From Devosia sp. Root413D1 (lineage in GTDB: Bacteria; Pseudomonadota; Alphaproteobacteria; Rhizobiales; Devosiaceae): a DNA stretch of 64,000 bases. The stretch lies in NCBI RefSeq assembly GCF_001425235.1, contig NZ_LMEA01000012.1:437818-501817 (forward strand). Reading direction: 5' to 3'. How positions within the stretch are numbered: position 1 is the first letter of the stretch; the number at the start of each line of letters is the position of its first letter. Under the pieces are notes generated by a model. That model worked only from the letters and a program-made list of their open reading frames with translations, was not told the DNA's origin and ran no database searches. Position numbers and translations under genes: made by a program. This document shows, piece by piece, positions 21,557-40,279 of this stretch.

Positions 21557-22876
21557 CTACTCCGGCCAACGATCGTCCGGGCGCCAGAAGCCGAGTTTGG
21601 GGGTGTTCCACTCGTCGGTGGGGAGGAACATCGTGCCGGGAGTGCGGAGGTTCGCTTCGATCGCCTCGAGGTTGAGGTCGATGCCGAGGCCCGGCTTGTC
21701 GGGCACGGTGACGTAGCCGTCGGCCATGTAGTTGGGCTCGAGGCCGGTGACGAGGCTCTCCCAGAACGGCAGGTCGAGGCCGTGATGCTCGCAGGCGAGG
21801 AAGCTCGAGATCGCGGCGGCAGTGTGGATATTGGCCATGAAGCCGATGGGCGAGCCGGCGCAGTGCAGCGCCGTCGGGATGCCCTCTTCTTCGGCGTCGT
21901 CGGAAATGCGCTTGGTTTCCATCAGGCCGCCCGAGGTGAGCAGGTCCGGGTGGACGATGTCGAAGGCGCGGGTGCGGATCGCCTCGCGGAAACCATCACG
22001 CAGATAGAGATCCTCGCCGGCGGCGATCGGGGTCAGCAGCGCATCGGCGATCTTCTTGTGGCCCGGTATGTCGAAGCGCGACACCGGGTCTTCCATCCAG
22101 GCGAGATCGAACTTTTCGAGCGCCTTGCCGAGGCGGATGACCTCATCGGAGGTGAGATAGCCTTCGCCGAAGTGATCGACGCAGATCTGCACGTTGGGGC
22201 CGACGGCCTGGCGGACTTCGCCGACGACATGCGCGGCGCGTTCGATGGTGGCATCGGTGAGCTTGACGCCGCGGCCATGCATCGGTGCCTTGAACGGCCG
22301 GCCCTCCTCGTAGGCGAAGTCGTATTTGGCGTCGTTGCCGATCAGCGGGCTGTCACCGGTCTCGAACAACGACGGCCTCAAATCGAACTTGATCCAGGTG
22401 AGGCCCCGGTCACGACGGCCGAGCACCGCGGCAACGAAGTCCTCAGGGGTCGGATCGTCGGGGGTCGGGGTGTCGCCGTAGAGGCGGACCTTGTCGCGAT
22501 GCTTGCCGCCGAGCAACTGGTAGCACGGCACACCATAGACCTTGCCGATCAGGTCCATCAGCGCGATCTCGATGCCCGAGACACCACCGCCTTCGCGGCC
22601 CCAATTGCCGAAGCGCTTGATGGTGCGGAAGATCATGTCGACGTTGCAGGGGTTCTGCCCGACCAGCATCGACTTGAACTGCAACGCGTTGCTGGCATGG
22701 CCGGCGTCGCGCACTTCGCCAAGGCCATAGACGCCCTGGTTAGTGTCGATCCTCAGGATCGGATAATCGTAATTGGCTGCCACCACGGCGAGCCGCATGT
22801 CGGTGATGCGAAGTTCGGACGGGTTGGAGTGGGTGGTTATGGCGTTTTCAATCCGGCCCAGCTGCTTGTCGGTCAT
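21557..22876 (-). CDS. Enolase-superfamily sugar-acid dehydratase
   Basis: This 439-residue enzyme belongs to the mandelate racemase/muconate lactonising group of the enolase superfamily. The probable magnesium ligands are Asp234 (ICVDHFGEGY), Glu262 (WMEDP) and Glu288 (AAGEDLY). Lys163 lies in WIKFDL and His338 in LHCAGSPIGF. This pattern fits dehydratases of sugar acids such as gluconate, mannonate or galactonate, giving 2-keto-3-deoxy acids. The adjacent DapA-family gene would act on such a product. Both lie in a leftward operon facing the GntR gene at 24021. The exact acid cannot be read from sequence. Confidence 0.87.
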   Translation of the reverse strand: MTDKQLGRIENAITTHSNPSELRITDMRLAVVAANYDYPILRIDTNQGVYGLGEVRDAGHASNALQFKSMLVGQNPCNVDMIFRTIKRFGNWGREGGGVSGIEIALMDLIGKVYGVPCYQLLGGKHRDKVRLYGDTPTPDDPTPEDFVAAVLGRRDRGLTWIKFDLRPSLFETGDSPLIGNDAKYDFAYEEGRPFKAPMHGRGVKLTDATIERAAHVVGEVRQAVGPNVQICVDHFGEGYLTSDEVIRLGKALEKFDLAWMEDPVSRFDIPGHKKIADALLTPIAAGEDLYLRDGFREAIRTRAFDIVHPDLLTSGGLMETKRISDDAEEEGIPTALHCAGSPIGFMANIHTAAAISSFLACEHHGLDLPFWESLVTGLEPNYMADGYVTVPDKPGLGIDLNLEAIEANLRTPGTMFLPTDEWNTPKLGFWRPDDRWPE

Positions 22877-22957: not shown

Positions 22958-23881
22958 TCAGCGGCGGTGCGTATAGGCGGGGAGCATCAGGTCGGCGAGG
23001 TCGTCCATGATGGCGGCGGCCTCGGCGCGGGCGGCAGCGTCGAGCGCGCGGAAGCCGGATTGGCGGACCGCAGCGCTGGGGATGACGCCGCGCTGCTTCA
23101 GCACCTCCTTCATCAGCGGCATGCCGTAATTGCTCTCCATATCGAGCAGCGGCAGCAGGCGCTGGAAGATGTTGCGGGCGCGCCTGTCGTCCCCGGCTTC
23201 GATGGCGTTCCACAGCGCCACGTGCACGTCGGCGATTTCGCAGGCCGGCATGGTGCCGGAGACGCCGTGACGGACTTCCTCCATCAGCGTCTTGCCGGCC
23301 TTGCCGCCCATCACGCCCTCGAGCTTGTCGCCGCAGAGCCGGATGATCTCGCCGACGGTCTGGGCCGGGTAACCCGACTCTTCCTTGACGAAGCGAGCGG
23401 TGGGGATCTCGCTCACCAGCTCGGCGATGAGGCCGGCGCTCAGCGGCGAGGCGCCCTGCCCCGAGACGTTCTGGATCACCAAGGGCAGCGTGGTGGCGGC
23501 GCCGATGGCCTTGTAGTGCGCCTTGATATCGGCCGGGCTCGAGGGATGCAGCGTCGGCGGCAGCGACATCACCGCGTCGGCGCCGATCGTCTCGGCATGG
23601 CGGGCGAACTCGACGGCGAGGTGGTAGTGCGGCGCCGACACAGCGACGATCACCGGCACCTTTCCCTTGGCCTTACCGACGACGATCTCGGCGGCGCGCC
23701 GGCGTTCGGCTTCGCTGAGATAGAAGCCTTCGCTGGCCAGCGCGTTGGCGACGACGCCATGGACGCCTGCGGCAAGACAGAAATCGAGCGTGCGCTCGAG
23801 GGCCGCCTCATCCAGCCGGAAGTCGTCGGTGAACGGCGTCGTGACGATCACGAAGATGCCGCGGTAGTCGTTGCGATCCAT
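22958..23881 (-). CDS. DapA-family aldolase/dehydratase
   Basis: This 307-residue TIM-barrel protein is of the dihydrodipicolinate synthase/N-acetylneuraminate lyase family. The Schiff-base lysine is Lys166 in FVKEESG. The usual catalytic Tyr of the YN motif is replaced by Gln137 (LVIQNVSG), and the GTTGE phosphate/carboxylate loop reads ALASEGF. It is therefore not a standard DapA. Next to a sugar-acid dehydratase, a role on a 2-keto-3-deoxy sugar acid is likely. I start it at the ATG at 23881; an upstream extension would cross the operator region. The divergent GntR gene and a 16-bp palindrome lie immediately upstream. Confidence 0.87.
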   Translation of the reverse strand: MDRNDYRGIFVIVTTPFTDDFRLDEAALERTLDFCLAAGVHGVVANALASEGFYLSEAERRRAAEIVVGKAKGKVPVIVAVSAPHYHLAVEFARHAETIGADAVMSLPPTLHPSSPADIKAHYKAIGAATTLPLVIQNVSGQGASPLSAGLIAELVSEIPTARFVKEESGYPAQTVGEIIRLCGDKLEGVMGGKAGKTLMEEVRHGVSGTMPACEIADVHVALWNAIEAGDDRRARNIFQRLLPLLDMESNYGMPLMKEVLKQRGVIPSAAVRQSGFRALDAAARAEAAAIMDDLADLMLPAYTHRR

Positions 23882-23995
23882 GGGTATTGCCTTGTGTTTT
23901 GGATCAGGCGGCGATGCGCGGCCCATCGGGAATGCGCTGGACCTCCCCGTCCTGCGCAACGTATAGGACGATGCAAGATCGTATCAAATGTGTCA

Positions 23996-24719: not shown

Positions 24720-24787
24720 ACGGCGGATAGTTGGGGGCAATGCTCACTTGGGTACCTCCCCCACATGCACCCTTGTCATCTCTCCGA

Positions 24788-24807
24788 GACTTTGTATGAT
24801 AAACAGA
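24788..24807 (+). promoter_or_regulatory. Site GACTTTGTATGATAAACAGA, shared with 28699
   Basis: This 20-mer differs at only two positions from the one at 28699. Its core TTGT-N3-ATAA is near-symmetrical, as in FadR-type GntR operators. It lies about 95 bp upstream of the GntR gene at 24900, suggesting autoregulation. Confidence 0.6.
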
Positions 24808-24899
24808 CATTCTTGCAAGCCCTCGTGATTCAGCAAAAGGGAGGTACAAGCGGGAGCACGGACTCGTGGTCCGGGGCGGCCAAAAGGACGGAGCAGTTC

Positions 24900-25697
24900 A
24901 TGTCGGTAGTTTCGCGTCAGCCGGGCGGCACACGGGGCAACAGCCTCGGCGGCCTCATGCAGGTGCGCGGCATATTGGGGGGCATCGTCGCCGATCTCGG
25001 GCGGCGGGTGGTGGCGGGAGAATGGAAATCCGGCGAGACCCTGCCCACCGAGGCGGAACTGATGGCCGAGCTCCAGGTGGGCCGGTCGGTGGTCCGCGAG
25101 GCGATGCGCATCCTCAATGCCAAGGGCCTGGTGCGCAGCCGGCAGATGGAGGGCACGACAGTGATGCCGCGCGCCAACTGGCGGCTGCTCGACCCCGACC
25201 TGATCCAGTGGCGGATCGAAGCTGCCGACAAGAAGACGCTGCTGAAGGACCTGTTGCAGGTGCGCCTGGCGCTCGAGCCCGGCGTGGTCTGGATCGCCAC
25301 CGCCACCGGATCGGACGAAGCCAAGGCGCGCATCCATGCCGCCTGGAAGGCCAAGACCGATGTCCTCACCGAGTCGTCGTCCCCGCAGGAACAACGCGAC
25401 CATTTCATCACTCACGATCTCGAATTTCATCGCGCGTTCCTCGCAGCGGTTGGTTCGGAGATCCTCGAGCAGCTCTTTTCGGTGATCGAAGCGGCCCTGT
25501 CGCTGATGATCGACGGGCAGATGCAGGCGAGGGGTTCGACGACCACCCTGGTGGGGATGGAGGAGACCAACCAACTGCATCAGGACGTCTATGACGCCTT
25601 CGCCGCCGGGGATGCCGACAAGGCCGAGCGGGCGATGCGCTACCTGATCCAGCGCGCCATTATCGACGCCAACGAGGGCTTCGCGCTCAGCGAGTGA
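24900..25697 (+). CDS. FadR-type GntR transcriptional regulator
   Basis: This 265-residue protein has a GntR winged helix (GEWKSGETLPTEAELMAELQVGRSVVREAMRILNAKGLV) and an FCD effector domain with D-L-E-F-H-R-A-F and H-Q-D-V-Y motifs. I chose the ATG at 24900 because GGACGGAG precedes it; an upstream ATG has no ribosome site and would overlap the operator. The GH105-like gene follows after 21 bases. The same 20-bp motif lies before this gene and in the lactonase-SDR/importer promoter. It is therefore the best candidate for the controller of the whole 25-36 kb block. Confidence 0.92.
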   Translation: MSVVSRQPGGTRGNSLGGLMQVRGILGGIVADLGRRVVAGEWKSGETLPTEAELMAELQVGRSVVREAMRILNAKGLVRSRQMEGTTVMPRANWRLLDPDLIQWRIEAADKKTLLKDLLQVRLALEPGVVWIATATGSDEAKARIHAAWKAKTDVLTESSSPQEQRDHFITHDLEFHRAFLAAVGSEILEQLFSVIEAALSLMIDGQMQARGSTTTLVGMEETNQLHQDVYDAFAAGDADKAERAMRYLIQRAIIDANEGFALSE

Positions 25698-25718
25698 CGG
25701 GCCCCGCAAAGGGACGAC

Positions 25719-26807
25719 ATGACAGAGCCGACAGGGGAGCAACGCCAGCTGTTCAAGCGGGTGGCGGAGCGGCTGCAACAACACGATTTCAAGGGCTGGT
25801 TCTACGGCGACTCGGTGGGTTTTGAAGGCCTGATCGCTGCCGGCGACATGCTCGGGGTAAAAACCTGGCAGGATTTCTCGCAAGGCTTCTTCCGCGCCTG
25901 GGCCACCCGCATGGAGCCGTTCCAGCTCGACGACAACACCGCGCCCGGCCACGCCATGTGCGAGATCGTCAGGCGCACCGACGACCAGGTGCTGTTCGCG
26001 GCGGTCAAGAAGCTTGCCGAACACCTCTATGCGCGCCGCCGCGTGCGCGGCGTCAGCATCACCTTCGAGGATACGCTGCGCGCCCTGCGCCAGCCCTATG
26101 GCGGGGTGCTCCTCTCAGCCGCGGACCAGCAGTTCATGCAGGACCCGGGTGCCGGCATCTGGCTCGACTGCATGCATTTCGATCCGCCGTTCTACGCGCA
26201 TCTGGCAGCGATCGGCGGCGGCGGCGAGTGGTCGCAGCGCGCGGTCGACGAAATCCTCGGCTATTGCGACCTGCTGTTTGACCCCGAACTCGGCACCTAC
26301 AACCACTACTGGCTGGAAAAGACCGAGCGCTCCTATATCCGCGGCTGGGGTCGCGGCCAGGGCTGGGCGCTGCTCGGGCTGCTCGACGTGGTCGAGCATG
26401 CCAGCGAGAGCTCTGGGAATTACGACGAAGTGGTGTGCCGCACGCAGAACCTGGCGCTGGCGATGCGCGACTGGCAGCTCGATGACGGCAACTGGTGGGC
26501 CATGGTGCACGAGCCGGCTTCCGGCCCGGAGTCGTCAACCGCCGCCTTCATGTCATGCGCGCTCTACCGGGGTATTCGGTTGGGCATTCTGCCGGCGGAC
26601 GAGTTCCGGGCCGCGGCGGACAAGGCCTATGATGCGATGGTCAAGAACCTCGACGCCGAGGGTAACCTCCAGGGTGTCTCAGCGGCGGTCTATGCGGCGC
26701 TGGTGCAGCAGCATTACTGGCACGTGCCGCGCGGCTACATCGTGCCGTGGGGCCAGGGGCCGGTGCTGACCGCGGCATTGGCGCGGGTCAGGGTGGATGA
26801 GCGGTAG
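25719..26807 (+). CDS. GH105/GH88-like unsaturated glycuronyl hydrolase
   Basis: This 362-residue protein has the alpha/alpha-barrel hydrolase motifs of the YteR/YesR group. IWLDCMHFDPPFYA places Asp150 at the catalytic aspartate position, and it also has WGRGQGW, ESSTAAF and PWGQGP. Known members hydrate the unsaturated uronic acid left by pectin or other polysaccharide lyases. No signal peptide is present, so the substrate is an imported unsaturated oligosaccharide. It is co-transcribed with the GntR gene. The family is broad, and the true substrate could be another uronate-containing glycoside. Confidence 0.83.
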   Translation: MTEPTGEQRQLFKRVAERLQQHDFKGWFYGDSVGFEGLIAAGDMLGVKTWQDFSQGFFRAWATRMEPFQLDDNTAPGHAMCEIVRRTDDQVLFAAVKKLAEHLYARRRVRGVSITFEDTLRALRQPYGGVLLSAADQQFMQDPGAGIWLDCMHFDPPFYAHLAAIGGGGEWSQRAVDEILGYCDLLFDPELGTYNHYWLEKTERSYIRGWGRGQGWALLGLLDVVEHASESSGNYDEVVCRTQNLALAMRDWQLDDGNWWAMVHEPASGPESSTAAFMSCALYRGIRLGILPADEFRAAADKAYDAMVKNLDAEGNLQGVSAAVYAALVQQHYWHVPRGYIVPWGQGPVLTAALARVRVDER

Positions 26808-26816
26808 GCTGCTGGC

Positions 26817-26940
26817 AGACGGCCCCCTCCCATCCTCCCCCAAAAAGGGGGAGGTGCCGCACCGAGTGCCTGGCACTACCTAGCCACAAACTCGACTCTT
26901 CACCTTCCCCTTTATGGGGGAGGCCGGGAGGGGGCCGTCT
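26817..26940. repeat. Compound inverted repeat between convergent genes
   Basis: Outer arms 26817-26831 and 26926-26940 are perfect 15-bp inverted copies. Inside are two further hairpins built on CCTCCCCC/GGGGGAGG. The element separates the convergent GH105-like and lactonase genes and probably terminates both. Confidence 0.7.
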
Positions 26941-26965
26941 CTATCAGTCGACTAGTCGTCCACCC

Positions 26966-27865
26966 TCACCCAAACTCCGGCGCCGCCATCCCCTTCACCC
27001 CGGGCCGGCAGACCAGCACGTTGCCCGACTCGGGCGCTGCCGCCAGCTCGGCCTCGGTCGCGCCATAGCTCGCCGTGGTGATGTACAAATCGCTGAGGTC
27101 CGGCCCCCCGAACGCGCAACTGGTGGGCTTGGCCACCGGCACCTCCAGCACCAGGTCGACGTCGCCGCGCGGCGTGAAGCGCACGACACAGCCGCCGTCC
27201 CAGCGGGCGTTCCACAGGCACCCTTCGGCATCGACGGTGGAGCCGTCCGGCACGCCGCGATCGAACCTGGCAAAGGGGCGCTTGTTGCTGATCACGCCGT
27301 CATCGAGGTCGAAATCATAGGCCGAGATTATCCCCGAGGCGGTGTCACAGAAGTACATGGTGCGGTTATCCGGGCTCCAGCACACGGTGTTGGAGATCCA
27401 GATACCGGTGTCGTGGGCGGTGAGCGTCAGGTCCGGATCGAGCCGGTAGAGGGTCCCCGCCGCTTCGAGCAGATCCATCCCGCCACCATTGGGCTGCAGG
27501 TTGTTCTGCATGGTGCCGAACCAGAAGCGGCCTTTCGCGTCGGTGCCGCCGTCGTTGGAGCGATTGTAAGGTTTGGCCGGGTCGGGATCGAGCAGGTGGG
27601 TCAGTTGCTTCGTGGTGAAATCGAAGCTCGAGATGCCGCTATGGGTGGCGACGATCAGCCCGCTGCCGTCGCGTCTGGCTCGGACGCTCATCACCATCTG
27701 CGGCATGGCGTAAGTGTCGCTCTTGCCGCTGGCCGGATCGTAGCAATGGAGCTTTGCCGGTTGCGGCACATCCACCCACCAGAGCTTTTGCCGCCGCGCA
27801 TCCCAGAAGGCGCCCTCCCCCAGGAGGTCATGGCTTTCGACGGCAGTTGAAACCGAAATGGACAC
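26966..27865 (-). CDS. SMP-30/gluconolactonase-family lactonase
   Basis: This 299-residue six-bladed beta-propeller enzyme hydrolyses sugar lactones to aldonic acids using a divalent metal. The expected metal ligands are all visible: Glu17 (LLGEGAFWD), Asn104 (NRSNDGGTDAKGRFWFG), Asn159 (WISNTVCWS) and Asp207 (VPDGSTVDAEG). There is no signal peptide. It follows the SDR gene in the same direction with only a few bases between them. A dehydrogenase-lactonase pair that oxidises an imported sugar to its acid is therefore likely. The sugar is probably the ligand of the CUT2 importer divergent from it. Confidence 0.91.
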   Translation of the reverse strand: MSISVSTAVESHDLLGEGAFWDARRQKLWWVDVPQPAKLHCYDPASGKSDTYAMPQMVMSVRARRDGSGLIVATHSGISSFDFTTKQLTHLLDPDPAKPYNRSNDGGTDAKGRFWFGTMQNNLQPNGGGMDLLEAAGTLYRLDPDLTLTAHDTGIWISNTVCWSPDNRTMYFCDTASGIISAYDFDLDDGVISNKRPFARFDRGVPDGSTVDAEGCLWNARWDGGCVVRFTPRGDVDLVLEVPVAKPTSCAFGGPDLSDLYITTASYGATEAELAAAPESGNVLVCRPGVKGMAAPEFG

Positions 27866-27877
27866 GAACGTTCCCCT

Positions 27878-28651
27878 CTATTCGTACATGCGGATGGTGA
27901 CGCCGCCATCGATCACGATGTTGGCGCCGACAATGAAACGAGCCTCGTCGGAGGCGAGCATGGCAGCCACTGCCGCCACTTCGTCGGGCCGTCCGAGCCG
28001 CCCGACGGGCTGCTTCGCCTCGACCTTGCGGCGGGCATCGGGGTCCGGGTTCTCGGCGAACATCCGCTGGTTCAGCGGCGTATCGATATAGCCGGGCGAG
28101 ATGGCGTTCACGGTGATGCCACGGTCGGCATATTCGAGCGCCAGCGACCGGGTCAGCCCCAGGAGGCCATGTTTGGCGATCGGATAGGGGAAGGTGTTGC
28201 GGATGATCTGGAACGAGTGGTTCGAGGCGATGTTGACGATGGCGCCGCTGCCCCGCGCCAGCATCGCCGGCAGCACGGCGCGGCAGCAGAACCAGGCGCC
28301 GTCGAGATCGACCGACATGCAGCGGGCCCAGTCGGCATCGGTGATCCCGAGCGGATCGCCGAACACCGCGATGCCGGCATTGTTCACGAGGATATCAGGG
28401 GCGCCGAGGGTCGCGGTGGTCTCCGCTACCATGGCCTCGACGCTGCTGGTATCGGCGACATCGCAGTGGATGTATCGCGCCCCTGTACCGGTCTCCGCCC
28501 GCAGCGCCGCAGCCGTCGCCTCGCCCAGCGCCGAGCTGATTTCGGCGACGGCCACATGCGCGCCTTCGGCTGCGAAACGGCGGGCAATGGCCTCGCCGAT
28601 ACCCTGACCGGCACCGGTGACAATGGCGACCCTGTCGCGCAAACGCTCCAA
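27878..28651 (-). CDS. SDR-family sugar dehydrogenase, TTG start likely
   Basis: This 257-residue short-chain dehydrogenase has the NAD(P) motif TGAGQGIG, NNAG, a catalytic Ser in NIASNHS and the YPIAK catalytic pair, ending IDGGVTI. I place the start at TTG 28651 because GGGGAGG lies exactly six bases upstream. The in-frame ATG at 28684 has no ribosome site and would add 11 residues. With the lactonase immediately downstream it probably oxidises an imported aldose to a lactone. Its promoter faces the CUT2 importer and carries the GntR-type site at 28699. Confidence 0.88.
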   Translation of the reverse strand: MERLRDRVAIVTGAGQGIGEAIARRFAAEGAHVAVAEISSALGEATAAALRAETGTGARYIHCDVADTSSVEAMVAETTATLGAPDILVNNAGIAVFGDPLGITDADWARCMSVDLDGAWFCCRAVLPAMLARGSGAIVNIASNHSFQIIRNTFPYPIAKHGLLGLTRSLALEYADRGITVNAISPGYIDTPLNQRMFAENPDPDARRKVEAKQPVGRLGRPDEVAAVAAMLASDEARFIVGANIVIDGGVTIRMYE

Positions 28652-28698
28652 AACGATCCTCCCCAACTCGTCCACACCCGTCATTAGTGGGGCGCGTT

Positions 28699-28718
28699 GA
28701 CTTTGTCAGATAAACAGA
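28699..28718 (+). promoter_or_regulatory. Site GACTTTGTCAGATAAACAGA, shared with 24788
   Basis: This 20-mer matches the site at 24788 at 18 of 20 positions and has the near-palindrome TTGTCAGATAA at its core. It lies between the divergent SDR-lactonase and importer operons, where one bound GntR dimer could control both. Confidence 0.65.
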
Positions 28719-28802
28719 TAAACATCCCAGTCGTCAACGGAGACCATCCCAATCAAAGGGCGGGCCCGTTCCGAGGATTTCACATCGGTCAGGGAGGACC
28801 AA

Positions 28803-29783
28803 ATGACCAAAACGTCTCGCATGCTGGGGCATGCGATGCTGGCTGCCGGCATGTTCGGCATGGCTTTGAGCGGCGCTGCGCTGGCGCAGGAGAAGCTGAT
28901 CGTCGGCATCTACAAGTCGGGGACGCAGCAATACTTCATCGATGAGGCCGCGGGCTTCACCAAGGCGGCGGAAGCGGCCGGCTACACCGCCAAGATCATC
29001 AATGTCGAACTCGACGCCAACCTCGCGATCAACGCCATCACCGATGCGATCGCCTCTGGCGCCAAAGGCATCGGCATCACCGCGCCGGACCAGGCGATCG
29101 GGCCGGCGGTGACCAAGGCTGCCGCCGATGCCGGCGTGCTGCTGGTCGCCACCGACGACTCGCTGAAAGACGGCGCCGGCAACGCGGTCCCCTATGTCGG
29201 CTTCGACGGCAAGGACATGGGCACCAAGGTCGGTGTCGCCGCCGGCGGGCTGCTGAAGGGTGCGGGCTGGCTCGAGGCCGGCAATTACGGCATCCTGTCG
29301 GTCGAAGTGCAGACCCTGTCGGTCTGCAACGACCGCACCAACGCCTCGCGCGATGAAGTGACCAAGGCCGGCGCCGATGCCGCCAGGATCTTCCCGGTGG
29401 CCTATGACGGCACCACCAATTCATCCCTCGAAGCCGCCGGCCCGGTGATCACCGCGCATCCGGATGTCGAGAAATGGGTGGTGTTCGCCTGCAACGACGA
29501 GGGCGCGCTGGGCGCCGTCAACGCACTGGCCAATGCCGGCTTCTCGCCCGACAACATCATCGCAGTGGGGCTGGGCGCCTACGAAGCCTGCCGGCCCTGG
29601 GCAGCGGGCCAGCCGTCGGGCTTCAAGGCGGCGCTTTATATCAGCGGCGTCGACGTGGGCGAAGCTGCAGCCAACGCGCTGATCAACGCCATCGAGAAGG
29701 GCGAGCCGCTGCCGCCGAACACGGTTGCCGCGACCTCGATCGTCGACCCGACCAACTACAAGGATGCGATGCCCTGCACCTGA
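28803..29783 (+). CDS. CUT2 sugar-binding protein, arabinose-binding-like
   Basis: This 326-residue periplasmic binding protein has a signal peptide (MLGHAMLAAGMFGMALSGAALA) and the two-lobed type I sugar-binding fold. Motifs include IVGIYKSGTQQYF at the start and AVGLGAYEACRPW late in the second lobe. CUT2 binding proteins usually carry monosaccharides such as arabinose, ribose, xylose or galactose. The ATG has an AGGGAGGA ribosome site. It heads the operon that runs through the CoA-transferase to the second SDR. The likeness to AraF-type proteins is a general impression only. Confidence 0.92.
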   Translation: MTKTSRMLGHAMLAAGMFGMALSGAALAQEKLIVGIYKSGTQQYFIDEAAGFTKAAEAAGYTAKIINVELDANLAINAITDAIASGAKGIGITAPDQAIGPAVTKAAADAGVLLVATDDSLKDGAGNAVPYVGFDGKDMGTKVGVAAGGLLKGAGWLEAGNYGILSVEVQTLSVCNDRTNASRDEVTKAGADAARIFPVAYDGTTNSSLEAAGPVITAHPDVEKWVVFACNDEGALGAVNALANAGFSPDNIIAVGLGAYEACRPWAAGQPSGFKAALYISGVDVGEAAANALINAIEKGEPLPPNTVAATSIVDPTNYKDAMPCT

Positions 29784-29800
29784 TGCAGCGCTGAACGCTC

Positions 29801-29823
29801 GGGCGGGCCACCTTGGTCCGCCC
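29801..29823 (+). promoter_or_regulatory. Hairpin between binding-protein and ATPase genes
   Basis: GGGCGGGCC (29801-29809) pairs with GGTCCGCCC (29815-29823) with one G-U and a five-base loop. A C-rich stretch follows. It matches the position of the hairpins in the CUT1 operons. Confidence 0.55.
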
Positions 29824-29848
29824 CCTTCCCCCACTGGTATCTCTCGTG

Positions 29849-31348
29849 ATGACCGATACACCTGTTCTTGACATCCGCGGCGTCGGCAAGGCGTTTCCCA
29901 ATGTCCGCGCCCTCAGCAATCTCAGCTTCGACGTCCGGCGCGGTGAGGTGATGGCGTTTGTCGGCGAGAACGGCGCCGGCAAATCCACCCTGCTCAAGAT
30001 TCTCTCCGGCGATTACCGGCTCGACGAAGGCACCGTGCTGCTCGATGGGCAGGAAGTCAGCCATGCCAACCCACTGGCGGCGCGGCGCGCCGGCTTCCGC
30101 CTGGTGCGCCAGGAGCCCGAGATCGTCCCGCATGTCAGCGCGGCCGAGAATATCTTCGTCGGCGAGTTGCCGCAGCGCGGCGGGGTCGTCGACTTCAAGC
30201 AGTTGCGCGCCGAGGCCAAGGCGTTGCTGGTCGAATGCGGCTTCGACGGCCTGCTCGACCTCGACGCCCAGGGCGACAGCTTTTCACCGGCGCAGCGCCA
30301 TATCGTCGAAATCGCCCGGGCGCTGAAGCCCGGCGTCAAGGTGATCGCCTTCGACGAGCCGACTTCCTCGCTCACCGCCGACGAGACCGAGCGGCTGTTC
30401 GCGCTGATCCGCAAGCTCAGAGCGCGCGGCCTCGCGGTGATCTACGTCACCCACCGCCTGCATGAGGTGATGGCGATCTCCGATCGTATCGTGATTCTGC
30501 GCGATGGGCGGCTGATCGGGGTCAAGGAAACCACGGCGACGACGCCGGACGACGTGGTGCGGATGATGGTCGGGCGTGACCTCTCCTATGGCTTCTCGCG
30601 CGCCGAGACGACGCGCGACGAGGTGGTGCTGGAGGTGCGCGGCCTCAAGAGCCGCTGGCACCGCGACATCAGTTTTCAGATCCGCGCCGGCGAGATTCTC
30701 GGCTTTGCCGGACTGGTCGGCGCAGGGCGGACCGAGCTCGCCAAGGTGATCTTCGGCGAGTACCACCGCAGCGCCGGCGAGATCCGCATTGCCGGCAAGC
30801 CCGCCCATATCCGCTCGCCCTCCGACGCCATCCGCGCCTCGATCGGCTTTGCGCCGGAAGACCGCAAGGGCGAGGGACTGATCCTTGTCCGCTCGGTGAT
30901 GGAGAACGCCTCGATGGCGGTGTTCTCGTCGCTCGCCCGCTGGGGCGTGCTGCGCAACCGGATAATGGTCGAGACGGTCGAGCCGCTGATCAAGAGCCTC
31001 GAGATCAAGACGCCTTCGCTCGAGCAGGAAGTCGGCAAGCTCTCGGGGGGCAACCAGCAGAAGGTGGTGCTGGCCCGCTGGCTCGCCGCCAAGCCGAAGG
31101 TGCTGATCCTCGATGAGCCGACGCGCGCCGTCGATGTCGGGGCCAAGGCCGAAATCTACCGGCTGATCGACAGCCTCGCCCAATCCGGTATCGCCATCAT
31201 GCTGATCTCGTCGGAAATGCCGGAGCTGCTGGCGCTCGCCGACCGCATCGTCGTCATGCATGGCGGCACAATTTCCACGCCGATCGAGAAGCACGACGCT
31301 TCCGAAGAGGTGATCCTCAACCACGCGCTCGGCCAGCGCGCCGCCTAA
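29849..31348 (+). CDS. CUT2 sugar ABC transporter ATPase (AraG/RbsA-type)
   Basis: This 499-residue protein is the duplicated ATPase of a monosaccharide importer. The N-terminal half has Walker A GENGAGKST (39-47) and a degenerate signature FSPAQR. The C-terminal half has the degenerate Walker A GLVGAGRTE and a standard signature LSGGNQQKV followed by LILDEPTRAVDVG. This asymmetry is normal for the family. I chose the ATG at 29849; a GTG directly before it is also in frame. It works with the binding protein before it and the permease 15 bp after it. Confidence 0.94.
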   Translation: MTDTPVLDIRGVGKAFPNVRALSNLSFDVRRGEVMAFVGENGAGKSTLLKILSGDYRLDEGTVLLDGQEVSHANPLAARRAGFRLVRQEPEIVPHVSAAENIFVGELPQRGGVVDFKQLRAEAKALLVECGFDGLLDLDAQGDSFSPAQRHIVEIARALKPGVKVIAFDEPTSSLTADETERLFALIRKLRARGLAVIYVTHRLHEVMAISDRIVILRDGRLIGVKETTATTPDDVVRMMVGRDLSYGFSRAETTRDEVVLEVRGLKSRWHRDISFQIRAGEILGFAGLVGAGRTELAKVIFGEYHRSAGEIRIAGKPAHIRSPSDAIRASIGFAPEDRKGEGLILVRSVMENASMAVFSSLARWGVLRNRIMVETVEPLIKSLEIKTPSLEQEVGKLSGGNQQKVVLARWLAAKPKVLILDEPTRAVDVGAKAEIYRLIDSLAQSGIAIMLISSEMPELLALADRIVVMHGGTISTPIEKHDASEEVILNHALGQRAA

Positions 31349-31363
31349 GCACCAGAGGGCGTA

Positions 31364-32419
31364 ATGACCAACATGACCAACTCTTCCATCCAGCCGACCA
31401 GCAGCAGCAACCCGCTGAAAGCGATCACCCGCTTCGTCGGCGCCGAGAACCTGTCGCTGATCATCGCGCTGGTGCTGCTGGTGGCCCTGATCGCCTCACA
31501 GACGCCGTTCTTCTTTGCACCGCGCAATCTGATGAATATCGGCATGAACCTGAGCGTCGTCGGACTGCTCGGGGTTGGGATGACCATCGTCATCGTCTCG
31601 GGTGCGCTCGATATCTCGGTGGGCTCGATCGCCGGCGTCGCCTCGGTGGTCTCGGCCATGCTGGTGACCTATGTGGGCACGGTGCTGGGCGGTGTGGCAA
31701 TGGGCGTCCTGGCCGGCGCCATCCTCGGCGTCGTCAACGCGGCGATCATCACCTACCTGAGGGTCAACGCAGTGGTCGCGACCCTTGCGACGCTCTCGGC
31801 CTATCGCGGACTGGCGTTCCTCATCGCCCCGGAAGGCCGGCCGATCGGCGTGCTGGACCAGAATTTCGCCTGGCTCGGTTCCGGCCGCATCCTCGAAGGC
31901 GGCGGCTTTCCAGGCGTTCCGGTGTCGCTGATCCTCCTCATCATCATCGCCGCCATCGGCCACTTCGTGATGAGCTCGACGGTGTTCGGCCGCTCGGTTT
32001 ATTCGATGGGCGGTAACCCGGCGGCGGCGCGACTTGCCGGCATCAACCTCAACCGGATGAAGTTCTACATCTTCACCATCTCGGGCGCGCTGGCGGGTCT
32101 CGCCGGAGTGCTGGTGACAGCGCGCACCAGCTCGGGCCAGCCGGCCTCGGGCACGCAGGGGCTGGAGCTCGAAGCGATCACCGCGGTGTTCCTCGGCGGC
32201 GCGATCCTTGCCGGCGGCAAGGGCACCATCGTCGGCACCATGCTGGCCGTGGTGCTGCTCGCGACGCTGTCGAACGGCATGAACCTGCTGGGCATCCCGA
32301 CCTTCTACCAGCTGGTCGCCAAGGGCTTCCTGCTGGTGGTGGCCGTGGCGATTGGGCAGTGGCGCATGGCGCGGGCCGAGAAGGCGCAGGCGCGTGCTGC
32401 CGCCGCGACGGGGAGCTGA
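31364..32419 (+). CDS. CUT2 sugar ABC transporter permease (AraH/RbsC-type)
   Basis: This 351-residue inner-membrane protein has eight to ten hydrophobic segments. It shows the family motifs VSGALDISVGSIAGVASV, YSMGGNPAAARLAGIN and GTIVGTMLAVVLLATLSNGMNLLG. It completes the monosaccharide importer, presumably as a homodimer. The aldose-epimerase-like gene begins two bases after its stop, so the metabolic genes downstream are part of the same transcript. Confidence 0.94.
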   Translation: MTNMTNSSIQPTSSSNPLKAITRFVGAENLSLIIALVLLVALIASQTPFFFAPRNLMNIGMNLSVVGLLGVGMTIVIVSGALDISVGSIAGVASVVSAMLVTYVGTVLGGVAMGVLAGAILGVVNAAIITYLRVNAVVATLATLSAYRGLAFLIAPEGRPIGVLDQNFAWLGSGRILEGGGFPGVPVSLILLIIIAAIGHFVMSSTVFGRSVYSMGGNPAAARLAGINLNRMKFYIFTISGALAGLAGVLVTARTSSGQPASGTQGLELEAITAVFLGGAILAGGKGTIVGTMLAVVLLATLSNGMNLLGIPTFYQLVAKGFLLVVAVAIGQWRMARAEKAQARAAAATGS

Positions 32420-32421
32420 GG

Positions 32422-33303
32422 ATGAGCACAGTCCTCCTCGAAAACGACCGGATGCGCGTAGGGGTGGAGCCGGGTTACGGCGCCCGCGTCACCAGCCTCC
32501 TCGACAGGCAGAGTGGGCGCGAGTGGATCGCGCAGGGGCAGCCGAGTCCGAAGACCGGCGAAGACGCCGAGTATGCCGGTGACGAAGCGGTCGGCTGGGA
32601 CGAGTGCTTCCCCACCGTCGCGCCGTGGGACGCCAGCCACGCTGCCTGGGGGCGGAAGCTGCGCGACCATGGCGACCTGTGGGGCCGGCCGTTCGCCGTG
32701 GAAGAGCAGACGCCGACGGCGCTGCGCCTCAACTACACCGACCCGCAGTTCCGCTTCACCCGCGAGCTGCGGCTCGACGGGGCGTCGCTGATCGCCCGTT
32801 ACCGGGTGGAAAACCGCACCGACACATCGCTGCCCTATCTCTGGGCCCTGCACGGCCTGCTCGCCGTCACCGACGCCGACAGCATCGAACTGCCTGAGGT
32901 CGAGACGATATCGGCCACCTATCTGTCGATCGGCGACACGTTCCTGAGCGTGCCGCGGCTCGCCTGGTCGAAGCCGAACGGCGTGCTGCCGTTCACGCTC
33001 GACAAGGTGCAGCCGGCCGCCTCGGTGTTTGCCGGCAAGTTCTACGCCGCCGTGCCGGGTCGCACGGCCCGGGTCGGTCGGCCAGGGCAATGGCTCGAGC
33101 TTGCCTGGGACCAGAGCATCGAGCAGCTCGGCATCTGGCTGACCTATGGCGGCTGGCCGGGCCCCGGCGGCCACCACGAGATCGCGCTCGAGCCCACCAA
33201 TGCCGCCGCCGATACGCTCGGCGAAGCCATCGACGCCGGCGCACCGCCGCTTGCCCCAGGCGAGCGGCGCGACTGGCGCGTCACCCTTTCCCTCACATCC
33301 TGA
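32422..33303 (+). CDS. Aldose 1-epimerase-like (mutarotase fold) protein
   Basis: This 293-residue protein is of the galactose mutarotase-like superfamily, which interconverts sugar anomers. It shows an N-terminal beta sandwich (ENDRMRVGVEPGYGARVTSLLD), the segment WDECFPTVAPW and a late E-P-T-N-A-A motif. The ATG follows GAGG, two bases after the permease stop. In this operon it probably prepares the imported sugar for the dehydrogenase by equilibrating its anomers. Superfamily members also include D-hexose-6-phosphate epimerases, so the precise role is open. Confidence 0.82.
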   Translation: MSTVLLENDRMRVGVEPGYGARVTSLLDRQSGREWIAQGQPSPKTGEDAEYAGDEAVGWDECFPTVAPWDASHAAWGRKLRDHGDLWGRPFAVEEQTPTALRLNYTDPQFRFTRELRLDGASLIARYRVENRTDTSLPYLWALHGLLAVTDADSIELPEVETISATYLSIGDTFLSVPRLAWSKPNGVLPFTLDKVQPAASVFAGKFYAAVPGRTARVGRPGQWLELAWDQSIEQLGIWLTYGGWPGPGGHHEIALEPTNAAADTLGEAIDAGAPPLAPGERRDWRVTLSLTS

Positions 33304-33318
33304 ACACCGGACCCCGAG

Positions 33319-34107
33319 ATGACCGAAGAACCGCACATCCTCTACAGCGTCGAAAACGGCGTCGCGCATATGCAGATGAACCGGCCGAAAAAGCTCAACG
33401 CCATCACGGCGGCGATGGGCGGCGAGTTCGTACGCATCTGCCGCGAAGTCGACTATCGCGACGACATCAAGGTGCTGGTGATTTCCGGCGCCGGCGAGCG
33501 CTCGTTCTCGGCCGGCAGCGATGTCGGGGCGCTCGACGACCTGGGCGAGCCGTGGGAGCAGCGTAACCGCGCCGAGTATGACCGCGACTATATCGCGCCG
33601 CTCCTGAAACTGCGGAAGCCGGCGATCGCGGCGATCGACGGTTATTGCCTCGGCGGCGGGCTGGAAGTGGCGATGAGCTGCGATATCCGCGTCGCCACCG
33701 AGCGCTCGAGCTTCGGGGCGCCGGAAGTGCGGCGCGGCTGGCATGCGGGTTCAGGCAACACCTCGATCCTGCCGCGGCTGATCGGCTATGGCAACGCGGC
33801 GCGCTGGGTGCTGACCGGCGACATCTTCCCCGCCGCCGAAGCGCATCGCGTCGGCTTCGTGCAGGACCTGGTCAGCGTCGAGGAACTGTGGCCGCGGGTG
33901 CACGCCATTGCCGACCGGCTGGCGAAGAACCCGCCGATCGCCGTGCAGTCAGCCAAGAACATCATCAAGCAGAGCCAGGGCACCTCGATCATGCAGGGGC
34001 TGGCCTGGGAGAATGACGGCTACACGCTGTGCATGGGCACCGAAGACGCGGCCGAGGGCATCAAGGCCTTTGCCGAAAAGCGCGACCCCGTGTTCCGCGG
34101 GCGCTGA
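33319..34107 (+). CDS. Enoyl-CoA hydratase/isomerase (crotonase)
   Basis: This 262-residue crotonase has the oxyanion-hole segments FSAGSDV and GYCLGGG. Both catalytic glutamates of true hydratases are present: Glu116 in GGLEVAMSCD and Glu136 in FGAPEV, twenty residues apart as in mammalian enoyl-CoA hydratase. It should therefore be able to add or remove water across the 2,3 bond of an acyl-CoA. Its place between a sugar importer with a mutarotase and a CoA-transferase is unusual. Its substrate is probably the CoA ester formed by the next gene. The pair resembles CaiD/CaiB of carnitine metabolism in type only. Confidence 0.92.
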   Translation: MTEEPHILYSVENGVAHMQMNRPKKLNAITAAMGGEFVRICREVDYRDDIKVLVISGAGERSFSAGSDVGALDDLGEPWEQRNRAEYDRDYIAPLLKLRKPAIAAIDGYCLGGGLEVAMSCDIRVATERSSFGAPEVRRGWHAGSGNTSILPRLIGYGNAARWVLTGDIFPAAEAHRVGFVQDLVSVEELWPRVHAIADRLAKNPPIAVQSAKNIIKQSQGTSIMQGLAWENDGYTLCMGTEDAAEGIKAFAEKRDPVFRGR

Positions 34108-34119
34108 GAGACCACTGAC

Positions 34120-35361
34120 ATGAACGAACACGCTCCCCGCAACCGTGGCCCGCTGACCGGCCTCAAGGTGCTCGATCTCACCATCGCGCTGGCCGGCCCG
34201 ATGTGCACGCAGCGCATGGGCGAAATGGGCGCCGACATCATCAAGGTGGAAGCCCCGGGTGGCGGCGATTTCTCGCGCTACTCGACCATGGCGGGGGTCA
34301 CCAAGTTCGGCGACGCCACCACCTTCATCACGCTCAACCGCAACAAGCGCTCGCTGATCCTCGACCTCAAGTCGGATGCCGGGCGCGAGGTGCTGTACCG
34401 CATGGTGAAGGATGCTGACGTGCTGGTGCAGAACTTCCGACCGCGCGTCGCCAGCAAGCTTGGCATCGACTTCGCGACGCTCAGCGCCATCAACCCGCGG
34501 CTCGTCTATGGCTCGATCAGCGGCTATGGCGAGGACGGGCCGATGAAGGATCGGCCGGGCCAGGACCTCTTGGTGCAGAGCTTTACCGGCCTCACCATGA
34601 ATGCCGGCCGTGCCTCCGGGCTGCCACACGCCTCGCCGCTCTACATGGTCGATGTCTCGGCCTCGCACCTCCTCACCGAAGGGGTGCTGGCGGCACTGGT
34701 GGCGCGCGGCATCACCGGACGCGGGCAGGAGATCAAGGTTTCTATGGTCTCGGCGATAATGGAGATGCAGATCCAGGAGCTCACCTCCTACATGTCGACC
34801 GAGGCCCCGCCGACCCGTTCGGCGAGCCCGCAGGTATCGATCTGGATGGAGCCCCCCTACGGCATTTACGCCTGCACTGACGGCCACCTGGCGCTGGCGC
34901 AGGTCGATCTCAATGTGCTCGCCGAGGTGATCGGCGTGCCGGCGCTGAAGACGCTCAAGACGTCGCGCCCGAAGCAGACCGACAGCGCAGCGCTGATGCA
35001 GTGGCGCGACGACATCTACAATGCGGTGGCGGCAAAACTGGCGACCGATAGGGTGGCGCACTGGGATGAACTGCTCACCGAGCACGGGCTCTGGTGTGGC
35101 GTTGTCAACAATTACGAGCGGTTCCTCAGCCACCCGCAGACGCAGCGCTACCTGACCACCATGACGCACTCCAAGGGCGGCGAGTATCGCACCGTCGCGC
35201 CGGCCATCCGCTTTTCCGAGCAGCCGACCCCGGCACTGCGTGGCTCGCCGCGCTATGGCGAGCACAGCCGCGAGGTGCTGCTCGGCGCTGGCCTGTCGGT
35301 GGCCGAGGTGGATAAACTGTTCGCCGATCGCGTCGCGGTGGCGCAGCTGGAGGACGTGTGA
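34120..35361 (+). CDS. Family III CoA-transferase (CaiB/BaiF type)
   Basis: This 413-residue enzyme transfers CoA between carboxylic acids through an aspartyl-CoA intermediate. It starts with the family motif GLKVLDLTIALAGPMCTQRMGEMGADIIKVE. It contains the NRNKRSLILDLK and ISGYGEDGP segments, with catalytic Asp149 in RPGQDLLVQS. It lies 12 bases after the crotonase and overlaps the SDR that follows by one base. In this operon it would activate an acid derived from the imported sugar. The acid and CoA donor are unknown. Confidence 0.93.
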   Translation: MNEHAPRNRGPLTGLKVLDLTIALAGPMCTQRMGEMGADIIKVEAPGGGDFSRYSTMAGVTKFGDATTFITLNRNKRSLILDLKSDAGREVLYRMVKDADVLVQNFRPRVASKLGIDFATLSAINPRLVYGSISGYGEDGPMKDRPGQDLLVQSFTGLTMNAGRASGLPHASPLYMVDVSASHLLTEGVLAALVARGITGRGQEIKVSMVSAIMEMQIQELTSYMSTEAPPTRSASPQVSIWMEPPYGIYACTDGHLALAQVDLNVLAEVIGVPALKTLKTSRPKQTDSAALMQWRDDIYNAVAAKLATDRVAHWDELLTEHGLWCGVVNNYERFLSHPQTQRYLTTMTHSKGGEYRTVAPAIRFSEQPTPALRGSPRYGEHSREVLLGAGLSVAEVDKLFADRVAVAQLEDV

Positions 35362-36128
35362 TGGCAGGCCGGCTCGACGGGGAACATGTGCTGGTCACCG
35401 GCGGCAGCCGCGGCATCGGCGCAGCCATCGTCGAGAAGGCGCTGACGGAAGGCGCCCGGGTCTCGATCATCGATATCGAAGAGCAGGCGGGGCGAGCCTT
35501 CGCTGCCTCGCTCGGCGCCGACGATCAGGTGTATTTCGGCCGCGGCGACATCCGGATGGCCGACGAAATCAAGGCGTTCCACACAGCGGCGGTGGCCAGG
35601 CTCGGGCCGGTAACCGGGCTGGTCAACAATGCCGGACGCAACTCCAACGCCGACCCGGTGACGATGACCGAGGCGCAGTGGGATGATGTGTTCTCGGTCG
35701 ACCTGAAATCGGCGTGGCTCTGCGCTCGTGAGGTGCTGCCGGCAATGCTCGCGGCGAAGCGCGGTTCGATCGTCAACATCGCCTCGGTGCATGCCGACCA
35801 CACCTTCCCGGGGTACTTTCCCTATGCCGCGGCGAAGTCCGGGCTGGTCGGTCTGACCCGCTCGCTGGCGCTGGAAGTCGGCCCGCAACAGGTCCGGGTC
35901 AACGCGCTGTCGCCGGGCTGGACCGAGACCCGGCTGGTGGCCGAGTATTTCGCGACGCAGCCTGCCGACATGCGGCAGCAGGTGCTCGACGTGCACCCGA
36001 TGGGCCGCATCGCGACACCGATGGAAATCGCCAACTGCGCGGTGTTCCTGCTGTCTGATGAGGCAAGCTTCGTCACCGGCGCCAACTGGCGCGTCGATGG
36101 CGGCATGGGCGCGCGGTTCGCGGGGTAG
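35361..36128 (+). CDS. SDR-family oxidoreductase
   Basis: This 255-residue short-chain dehydrogenase has TGGSRGIG near the start, NNAGRN and a catalytic Ser in NIASVHAD. It has the YAAAK catalytic pair and a C-terminal VDGGMGARFAG. The ATG overlaps the CoA-transferase stop (TGATG), so translation is coupled. It is the last gene of the CUT2 operon and could oxidise or reduce the CoA-bound or free sugar-acid intermediate. SDR substrate cannot be read from sequence. Confidence 0.92.
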   Translation: MAGRLDGEHVLVTGGSRGIGAAIVEKALTEGARVSIIDIEEQAGRAFAASLGADDQVYFGRGDIRMADEIKAFHTAAVARLGPVTGLVNNAGRNSNADPVTMTEAQWDDVFSVDLKSAWLCAREVLPAMLAAKRGSIVNIASVHADHTFPGYFPYAAAKSGLVGLTRSLALEVGPQQVRVNALSPGWTETRLVAEYFATQPADMRQQVLDVHPMGRIATPMEIANCAVFLLSDEASFVTGANWRVDGGMGARFAG

Positions 36129-36260: not shown

Positions 36261-36425
36261 TCGTGGGTGTGGTGATCGCGGTGGTTCAGCCCACCGGTGG
36301 CGTAACAGACGGGCGCCAACCATCTGAGCCGTGAGAGAGCCCAACCCGCTCAAAAACCTCGCCTCCCAGGTTGTCGCTCACCGCCCGATAGGCCACTGTC
36401 GGCGCAACAAAACGAGGGAGTGACG

Positions 36426-37445
36426 ATGACCGAACTGGGTGAAACACGCTCGCTGGTCTGGGCGCATGGCGTGGTCAGCGTCGAGAGCCTGGGCGGGATG
36501 ATCGGGCCGACGCTGTTCGTGCTGCCCGACGGCCGGCAGGTGGCGCCGTTCCAGGTGGCGCCATGGGCGAACGAGCCTGGTGGCGAGACCCTGCCCGGCA
36601 TTTTGAAGCGGCTGCGCGGCGAGTGGCCCTGCGTGCCGTTCGGGGTCGACGGGGATCGCCCGGCACAGGGCGACTGGCCGGGGTCGGCGGCGCGCCCGAC
36701 GGTCGATACCGACCCGCATGGCTTCAGCTCCAACCATGACTGGCAGTTCGAGGCCGCGGCTGATGGCAGCATTGGGCTGAGCATTGCCTATCTGGAGACC
36801 CATCCGATCAAGGCGCTGCACCGGCGTGTCACGCCCGATCCGACCACGACGGCATTGGACTTTGAATTGATCATCGAAGTGCGGGACGACTGCACCTTGC
36901 CGCTGGGCCTCCATCCCTCGTTCCGGCTGCCGAGCAAGGTCGGCGCCATGCACATCGAGGTGGGGGACGAGATCACCGGGGCGACCTTCCCCGGACCGGT
37001 CGATGACACCTCGATCTTCGAACAGGGCCGGTTCCAAACGCCGTGGCGCGATGTGGCGCTCAAGGACGGGACACGGCTCGATGTCGCCCAGGTGCCGCTG
37101 GCGCAGGCGACGGAGGAGATCCTGCAGCTGCTCGACATGCCCGGCACGGCATCGCTGTGGAACAGCGCCGAGGGCTATCGGGTGCGGCTCAGCTGGAACA
37201 AGGAGCACTATCCGAGCGCGCTGCTCTGGATGTCGAACCGCGGCCGGCAGATGGCGCCGTGGAACGGCCGGCATTTGGCGCTGGGGTTCGAGCCGATCTG
37301 TTCGGCTTTCGATCTGGGGCCGCAGATTTCGGCGGCGGACAATCCGATCTCGAGGCGAGGCACGAAGACGGCGCGGCGATTCAGCGCGGGCGAGCGGTTC
37401 ATAACGCGTTATCGGATTGCGGTGGAGGCAGCGGAAGTGGTGTAG
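36426..37445 (+). CDS. Mutarotase-like (aldose epimerase family) protein
   Basis: This 339-residue protein probably has the galactose-mutarotase beta-sandwich fold. The sequence shows GLHPSFRLP, LLWMSNRGRQMAPWNGRHLALGFEPICSAFD and a C-terminal RYRIAVEAAE strand, the last part being typical of epimerase-like proteins of about 340 residues. The ATG at 36426 follows CGAGGGAG, while a GTG six bases earlier lies too near that site. It stands alone between two repeats. No specific sugar can be named, and enzymatic activity is inferred only from the fold. Confidence 0.75.
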   Translation: MTELGETRSLVWAHGVVSVESLGGMIGPTLFVLPDGRQVAPFQVAPWANEPGGETLPGILKRLRGEWPCVPFGVDGDRPAQGDWPGSAARPTVDTDPHGFSSNHDWQFEAAADGSIGLSIAYLETHPIKALHRRVTPDPTTTALDFELIIEVRDDCTLPLGLHPSFRLPSKVGAMHIEVGDEITGATFPGPVDDTSIFEQGRFQTPWRDVALKDGTRLDVAQVPLAQATEEILQLLDMPGTASLWNSAEGYRVRLSWNKEHYPSALLWMSNRGRQMAPWNGRHLALGFEPICSAFDLGPQISAADNPISRRGTKTARRFSAGERFITRYRIAVEAAEVV

Positions 37446-40254: not shown

Positions 40255-40279
40255 GGGGTTCCTCCTCCAGAGAGTAGAT

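Follow-up and report, generated by a model that had tools for sequence, protein, structure and literature searches.

Here, we describe a gene cassette in a window of 64,000 nt from Devosia sp. Root413D1 (contig NZ_LMEA01000012.1), the whole stretch of DNA analysed, in which a predicted unsaturated-uronyl hydrolase of the GH88/GH105 type is encoded together with a crotonase and a family III (CaiB/BaiF) coenzyme A (CoA)-transferase. These three genes remain together in all 17 orthologous loci detected; the cassette is genuine and conserved, and our searches uncovered no earlier description of it. In our preferred reading, which we hold tentatively, the cassette would take apart, in a CoA-dependent manner, a small glycoside in which galactose is linked to a hexuronate with a free or substituted C4 position. 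Gene content and homology are the basis on which substrate, CoA donor, reactions and reaction order are proposed here.

A first-pass annotation of the same sequence had named a monosaccharide importer, a mutarotase-like protein, a crotonase, a CoA-transferase and a short-chain dehydrogenase/reductase (SDR), with a facing SDR-lactonase pair. All of these genes are present as open frames where it had placed them. The GntR/FCD regulator and the key GH88-family gene, which lie inside the same coordinates, had been left unnamed.

Conservation of the cassette

Loci were collected by a CaiB-alignment scan of genome contigs. The scan relied on two short patterns drawn from a set of four CaiB sequences and yielded 40 loci, with distant ones undersampled. 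The orthologous set comprises the 17 loci with a CaiB identity of at least 60% (L042-L057 and L061). Many locus records are metagenome-assembled, that of SAR324 included, and several loci end soon after the gene for CaiB or for D-galactonate dehydratase (DgoD), so that counts for later genes are minima.

GH88, crotonase and CoA-transferase genes occur together in 17 of 17 loci (the GH88 copy of L046 is cut by the contig end), and therefore their grouping is not due to chance. The GntR regulator is found in 16 loci, the seventeenth being the truncated L046. SDR1 and the three importer genes are each present in 16 loci and the mutarotase-like gene in 15; importer and SDR, which the first-pass annotation had grouped with crotonase and CoA-transferase, are thus kept with them as a unit in 16 of the 17. 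A D-galactonate dehydratase gene directly follows CaiB in 11 loci, and in a twelfth (L057) it is located about 8 kb downstream. Further recurring genes encode an M24-family protein (at least nine loci), a DHDPS-family protein (at least eight), 2-keto-3-deoxygalactonokinase (DgoK, at least six), its aldolase (DgoA, at least three) and SDR2 (at least three, all from Devosia).

In Afifella (L048, 21 kb), the ABC importer, SDR1 and the lactonase are absent from the locus, whereas GH88, crotonase and CoA-transferase genes still adjoin each other and are accompanied by DgoK-, DHDPS-, DgoA- and TRAP-like genes. Upstream of this group, at a distance of 5-8 kb, an open reading frame (ORF) judged thiolase-like by eye and a second CaiB-like ORF were noticed (L048:2-2369). 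Separation of the CoA pair from the importer, which had been named beforehand as evidence against a single unit, is thus seen in part: in Afifella, and in 20 distant CaiB loci (29-35% identity), which carry no importer unit of the cassette type. In all 23 loci outside the orthologous set (CaiB identity 29-51%), GH88 was not found in the stretches examined at E 1e-12.

A partly independent test of the linkage was a search with GH88 alone in 385 genomes of the class (E 1e-50), 295 of the Aliiruegeria family (E 1e-50, query taken from Aliiruegeria) and 297 of the order (E 1e-40). It matched one, three and four genomes, respectively, or seven distinct ones when that of the window is counted once. 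Crotonase and CoA-transferase genes lie directly downstream of GH88 in all seven; six are the window or members of the 17-locus set, and only G555 (L101) is new. The cassette is rare, since within the class sample the protein occurs in the genome of the window alone, and in the genomes examined this hydrolase is always accompanied by the CoA pair. The cassette is common to some soil and sea bacteria. Beyond the Alphaproteobacteria it was seen in Vibrio penaeicida (L053) and in a SAR324 metagenome-assembled genome (L049), with CaiB identities of 60-64%, which suggests horizontal transfer.

Predicted enzymes of the conserved core

The GH88 protein matches the Pfam family Glyco_hydro_88 with 132 bits (cut-off 26.6) and is thus homologous to (alpha/alpha)6-barrel enzymes. 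Its AlphaFold (AF2) model, with a mean pLDDT of 86.8, was compared by Foldseek: among the best 26 rows, 24 are titled GH88, GH105, UGL or YteR, and the remaining two are a putative glycosyl hydrolase and a polysaccharide lyase. Probabilities of 1.00 were obtained for 3k11, 5noa, 4q88, 4ce7, YteR and UGL. Residues D72, D150, H196, W210, R212 and W216 are invariant in 16 sequences. The active pocket of the GH105 enzyme of C. acetobutylicum is reported to contain Tyr25, Asp75, His119, Trp128, Asp130, Met134, His176, Trp198, Arg200 and Trp204 (PMC4528949). In a HMMER alignment, D150, H196, W210, R212 and W216 correspond to Asp130, His176, Trp198, Arg200 and Trp204 of that enzyme, and Y29 and D72 are aligned with Tyr25 and Asp75 only within a very weak stretch of 3.5 bits. 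The position of Trp128 is held by Trp or Tyr and that of Met134 by Phe, and no counterpart was assigned to His119. Enzymes of GH88 and GH105 hydrate alpha-alkoxy, alpha,beta-unsaturated carboxylates. By homology and modelled fold, the protein is probably an unsaturated-uronyl hydrolase of this type, which would act on delta-4,5-uronides. A BglB/3-keto-glycoside route was considered for this protein and rejected: the NCBIfam BglB profile gives a distant, partial match (87 bits, cut-off 420), and nothing useful emerged from the literature.

The CoA-transferase matches the family III profile, and its Asp149, in the motif RPGQD, is aligned with an Asp in all four solved relatives shown, formyl- and succinate-hydroxymethylglutarate CoA-transferases included. 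This residue, already named as catalytic by the first-pass annotation, is invariant in five aligned sequences including that of the window. No named NCBIfam subfamily could be assigned; all seven NCBIfam matches lie far below their cut-offs. Likewise, the two catalytic glutamates named for the crotonase, Glu116 and Glu136, are in place and invariant in eight aligned sequences, window included. A profile built from eight crotonase homologues finds hydratases and a 3-hydroxypropionyl-CoA dehydratase as best matches. In a Devosia metagenome-assembled genome, the CoA-transferase gene (L032:9184-10413, the same gene in L043) contains an in-frame stop codon, which could be a sequencing error.

Importer and galactose branch

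All three importer subunits are homologous to those of AraFGH-type monosaccharide importers, the ATPase and the permease with scores below the equivalog cut-offs. The best NCBIfam profile is AraG for the ATPase (553 bits, cut-off 689) and AraH for the permease (234 bits, cut-off 378). The nearest solved relatives of the binding protein are L-arabinose-binding proteins (E 7e-26). Of the ligand residues of the latter, Lys10, Asp89/90, Arg151 and Asn205 have counterparts in the window protein; Glu14 is replaced by Gln, and Asn232 is not aligned with Asn. L-arabinose-binding proteins bind D-galactose as well. The mutarotase-like gene exists as annotated; its product reaches only 19.6 bits on Aldose_epim, which is below the Pfam cut-off of 27. 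In the closest Devosia genome (L031), the permease gene matches as two pieces in different frames (13929-14908), perhaps owing to a frameshift or an assembly error.

The dehydratase encoded after CaiB in L046 scores 589 bits on NF010624 (D-galactonate dehydratase, cut-off 311), and the other dehydratases in this position are 65-79% identical to it. DgoK, DgoA or both follow the dehydratase in some relatives. Because D-galactonate dehydratase stands after CaiB in 11 relatives, D-galactonate, and hence D-galactose, is the likely substrate of SDR1 and the lactonase. The cassette of the window itself has no D-galactonate dehydratase gene after CaiB; the best match in this genome (E 1e-60) is 34% identical and located on another contig. 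An M24 metallopeptidase-like gene sits downstream of the galactonate dehydratase gene in L046 (9643-10821) and in eight further cassettes; a prolidase-type role directed at arabinogalactan hydroxyproline would be a guess.

CaiB phylogeny and related clusters

A CaiB tree of 38 rows was calculated, with a midpoint root for drawing only. All 31 rows that stem from sugar-type clusters fall into one group (100/97). Within it, an inner group of 28 rows (98/94) excludes L092-L094 and itself contains the group of the 18 GH88-linked rows (99/94). Rows of Vibrio and SAR324 fall among the alphaproteobacterial ones, which again suggests transfer between lineages. The nearest branches outside the GH88-linked group belong to Sodalis (L059), Devosia (L058) and Hyphomicrobiaceae (L060). 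Provided that the root is correctly placed, the CoA pair of sugar clusters predates its union with GH88.

These three nearest clusters carry a solute-binding-fold protein without obvious signal peptide (SBP_bac_1/8 in the L059 copy). Proteins of this kind also stand beside CaiB or CaiB-crotonase, with GH88 absent, in L034 (6655-7863), L037 and L092-L094. They occur in six of the 385 class genomes, three times beside CaiB (L092-L094) and three times without CaiB in the stretch examined (L089-L091), and may be intracellular enzymes or sensors. A second conserved unit, of DUF4432, SDR, CaiB and crotonase, was observed in Devosia relatives (L035, L036, L038, L039, also L037) and in the genome of the window (G000:C10:54321); some copies are neighbours of ABC sugar-importer permeases.

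A possible CoA-dependent route and its weighing

In the proposed order of events, an arabinose/galactose-type ABC importer, or the TRAP-like transporter encoded beside some relatives, would bring the glycoside into the cell, where the CaiB-type enzyme would transfer CoA to the uronate carboxylate. The thioester would acidify H-5, and the crotonase would eliminate the C4 group, as water or, if the sugar is 4-O-methylated, as methanol, to give a delta-4,5-unsaturated uronyl-CoA. The transferase would then hand CoA to the next molecule, making its use catalytic. Hydration of the C4=C5 enol ether by the GH88-type enzyme would open the ring and release galactose, which would pass through oxidation by SDR1, the SMP-30 lactonase, galactonate dehydratase and aldolase cleavage.

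Such an order would account for the association of GH88 with crotonase and CoA-transferase, which holds in Afifella too. Hydratases of the crotonase type act in syn fashion, and in glucuronate (GlcA) H-5 and O-4 are on the same face; a crotonase with two glutamates is suited to a syn elimination of water from an acyl-CoA. As to the natural substrate, 4-O-methyl-glucuronosyl-galactose from arabinogalactan proteins is a guess; 4-O-methyl-glucuronate ends are described as unusually frequent in the arabinogalactan proteins of seagrass (PMC7237498).

A more general and more doubtful proposition is that CoA serves as a catalytic handle for glycosidic cleavage, the transferase and the crotonase making the delta-4,5-uronide from a saturated, possibly 4-O-methylated one inside the cell and GH88 finishing the reaction. 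CaiB-crotonase pairs of other sugar clusters would then be a general CoA-dependent sugar-acid dehydratase, which GH88 joined a single time, for substrates whose alpha oxygen is part of the ring.

Several points weigh against the glycoside reading. We know of no example of a CoA-dependent elimination on a sugar. Binding proteins of the arabinose type usually take a monosaccharide. Solved members among the best 26 Foldseek rows share 12-20% identity with the GH88 protein, and the second row is the one titled polysaccharide lyase. In the CaiB-crotonase clusters of Sodalis, Devosia (L058) and Hyphomicrobiaceae, GH88 was not found in the stretches examined, and therefore the CoA pair does something there without GH88. 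The Afifella genome has no DgoD at E 1e-60 and no SDR1 at E 1e-50, so that galactose is not universal. The reading assigns no role to the M24 gene of nine loci. Furthermore, ordinary beta-glucuronidases removing GlcA and 4-O-methyl-GlcA from arabinogalactan are reported (PMC8424115), and the CoA detour is thus unneeded in principle.

A sink for the resulting 4-deoxy-5-keto-uronate also counts among these points: the only PF04962 match in the genome of the window is IolB and not KduI, and Afifella has no PF04962 match. KduI is therefore unsupported in the genome of the window; KduD was not searched for. PF04962 matches occur at 31 places in 15 of 16 genomes. Seven of these were typed with NCBIfam, low-scoring places being left out, and in all seven IolB was the sole match at the threshold used (four above and three below its cut-off). 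SDR2 and the DHDPS-family neighbour could be candidates for this step.

Alternative explanations

The main competitor, in our view unlikely, is the route of the first-pass annotation. Here, oxidation of an imported sugar would yield a lactone and then an aldonate, which is linked to CoA, and loss of the C3 hydroxyl through the crotonase would lead to a 2-keto-3-deoxy acid; the pair would take the place of an aldonate dehydratase by way of CoA. The Devosia versions (window, L042, L043 and L061), which lack DgoD beside CaiB, are consistent with it. Its best case is the gene set of Sodalis L059 (19.7 kb), with two CaiBs, a crotonase, a sugar-lactonase-like protein (106 bits on the L-fuconolactonase profile, cut-off 400), DgoK and DgoA, in which no dehydratase or GH88 was found; however, Sodalis has a separate DgoK-DgoA-DgoD locus, and its CoA cluster may serve another acid. 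For galactonate, the route would be redundant, since 11 of 17 loci carry the dehydratase next to CaiB, and it leaves GH88, present in every locus, without a role. Galactonate dehydratase acts on the aldonate without any need for CoA, so that a different carboxylate is the probable target of the CoA pair. The order proposed earlier, from sugar through lactone, acid and CoA ester to dehydration, is thereby weakened. As the CaiBs of the cassette and of other sugar clusters form one clade, this may be the older chemistry, and the tree leaves room for aldonate dehydration via CoA as the older function.

It is improbable that GH88 hydrolyses a glycoside with a carboxylic-acid aglycone. In that case, the acid would be degraded by CaiB and crotonase in CoA-linked form, and the galactose would go to SDR1, lactonase and DgoD. 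Pairs of CaiB and crotonase do act on acids that are not sugars, of which carnitine is one example, and the importer type would suit a small galactoside. Against this, no thiolase or 3-hydroxyacyl-CoA dehydrogenase is found among the recurring, typed gene clusters (single ORFs, such as the thiolase-like one upstream in Afifella, are excluded), and GH88/GH105 enzymes act on unsaturated uronides, residues for which appear to be kept.

Least probable of the three is an import of ready-made unsaturated disaccharides from extracellular lyases, to be cut by GH88, with the CoA pair sharing the regulator and acting on a different substrate. Lyase products are indeed described as the usual substrates of GH88/GH105 enzymes (PMC8511951, PMC4528949), but this would give no reason why GH88 and the CoA pair are never apart in 17 loci, Afifella included.

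Gene organization in the window

The genes of the window cassette and of its candidate neighbours are listed in Table 1. Importer, mutarotase-like gene, crotonase, CoA-transferase and SDR2 probably constitute one operon, because the start of SDR2 overlaps the CaiB stop codon and the mutarotase-like gene most likely starts 2 nt past the permease stop. The enolase-superfamily and DHDPS-family neighbours are 91-96% identical to their counterparts in L031; the former scores 172 bits on the galactonate dehydratase profile (cut-off 311). Adjoining the cassette, two neighbouring genes of the GH38 alpha-mannosidase family are located on the minus strand (37618-44086), and a 7-bladed-lactonase gene follows beyond them.

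Table 1. Genes of the cassette and candidate neighbours, in window coordinates.
Gene product	Position	Strand	Evidence and remarks
GntR/FCD regulator (GntR2), first cassette gene	24765..25697	+	Pfam GntR and FCD domains; true start perhaps downstream of 24765
GH88/GH105-like unsaturated-uronyl hydrolase (predicted)	25719..26807	+	Pfam Glyco_hydro_88; signal peptide not evident (by eye)
SMP-30/gluconolactonase-family lactonase	26966..27865	-	SGL, 286 bits
SDR1, probable sugar 1-dehydrogenase	27878..28684	-	adh_short_C2; Y167xxxK and Gly-rich GAGQGIG
Periplasmic sugar-binding protein, L-arabinose-binding-protein type	28803..29783	+	Peripla_BP_4, 83 bits
ABC importer ATPase, AraG-like	29849..31348	+	ORF listed from 29813; ATG at 29849 preferred by inspection
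ABC importer permease, AraH-like	31364..32419	+	BPD_transp_2
Mutarotase-like protein	32422..33303	+	Weak Aldose_epim; ATG at 32422 chosen by inspection
Crotonase/enoyl-CoA hydratase, Glu116 and Glu136	33319..34107	+	ECH_1, 175 bits
Family III (CaiB/BaiF) CoA-transferase, Asp149	34120..35361	+	CoA_transf_3, 322 bits
SDR2	35358..36128	+	adh_short_C2; Y156xxxK and Gly-rich motif kept
Protein of no recognised family, cassette membership uncertain	36420..37445	+	No Pfam match; 93% identity in L031, 37% in Vibrio locus L053
Enolase-superfamily protein, neighbour, possible downstream step (uncertain)	21557-22876	-	MR_MLE domain
DHDPS-family protein, neighbour, possible downstream step (uncertain)	22958-23959	-	DHDPS domain

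Relation to known systems and significance

That the first-pass annotation did not recognise a known pathway agrees with the literature searched. Six sugar-acyl-CoA names gave no match in the open-licence PubMed Central (PMC) literature, and combinations of CoA-transferase or crotonase with sugar-acid, galactonate, uronic-acid and unsaturated-glucuronyl-hydrolase topics retrieved no description of the cassette there. The part of PMC9007349 consulted does not deal with this cassette.

The closest functional parallel is the ulvan degradation of Formosa agariphila, in which P29_PDnc is described as dehydrating a saturated GlcA or iduronate (IdoA) end to the delta-uronide before P33_GH105 acts (PMC8511951). 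The likeness consists in the conversion of a saturated terminal uronate to the delta-4,5 form and its release by a GH105 enzyme. In contrast, P29_PDnc seems to be cofactor-independent with a lyase-like mechanism, as far as that account goes (PMC8511951), whereas the cassette would use a CoA-transferase and a crotonase via a thioester. No CoA-dependent counterpart of this uronide dehydration was found in the literature searched. With YteR, UGL and the GH105 enzyme of C. acetobutylicum, the GH88 protein shares the fold of its model and, as far as the alignment goes, most active-pocket residues; it differs in its low identity (12-20%) and in its coupling to crotonase and CaiB in 17 loci.

The classical De Ley-Doudoroff pathway for D-galactose and D-galactonate is not known to include a CoA step. 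SDR, lactonase, galactonate dehydratase and kinase or aldolase recur in many cassette relatives, whereas the Devosia versions lack DgoD beside CaiB, and SDR2 is found there in two of three Devosia relatives. For carnitine, the family III CoA-transferase CaiB works with a crotonase, CaiD, which hydrates or dehydrates the CoA ester, CoA being recycled by transfer. The pairing and the recycling resemble the proposed route; the substrate is no sugar, and the window CaiB reaches 129 bits against a cut-off of 413 for carnitine CoA-transferase. For sugar acids handled as CoA esters there is a precedent, since degradation as deoxyribonyl-CoA has been proposed in Klebsiella michiganensis (PMC6365646). 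That proposal differs in its CoA-synthetase, hydroxyacyl-CoA dehydrogenase and thiolase, and the part of the paper available mentions neither crotonase nor glycoside cleavage (PMC6365646).

Plant and algal polysaccharides commonly carry uronic-acid ends. To our knowledge, these are overcome by hydrolysis, by lyases or by a dehydratase that seems to need no cofactor. If the proposed route is true, CoA-dependent elimination would add another chemistry for uronic-acid ends and could serve 4-O-methyl-glucuronate ends. Moreover, it would connect the breakdown of sugars with acyl-CoA enzymes and account for the recurrence of CoA-transferases and crotonases in sugar operons.

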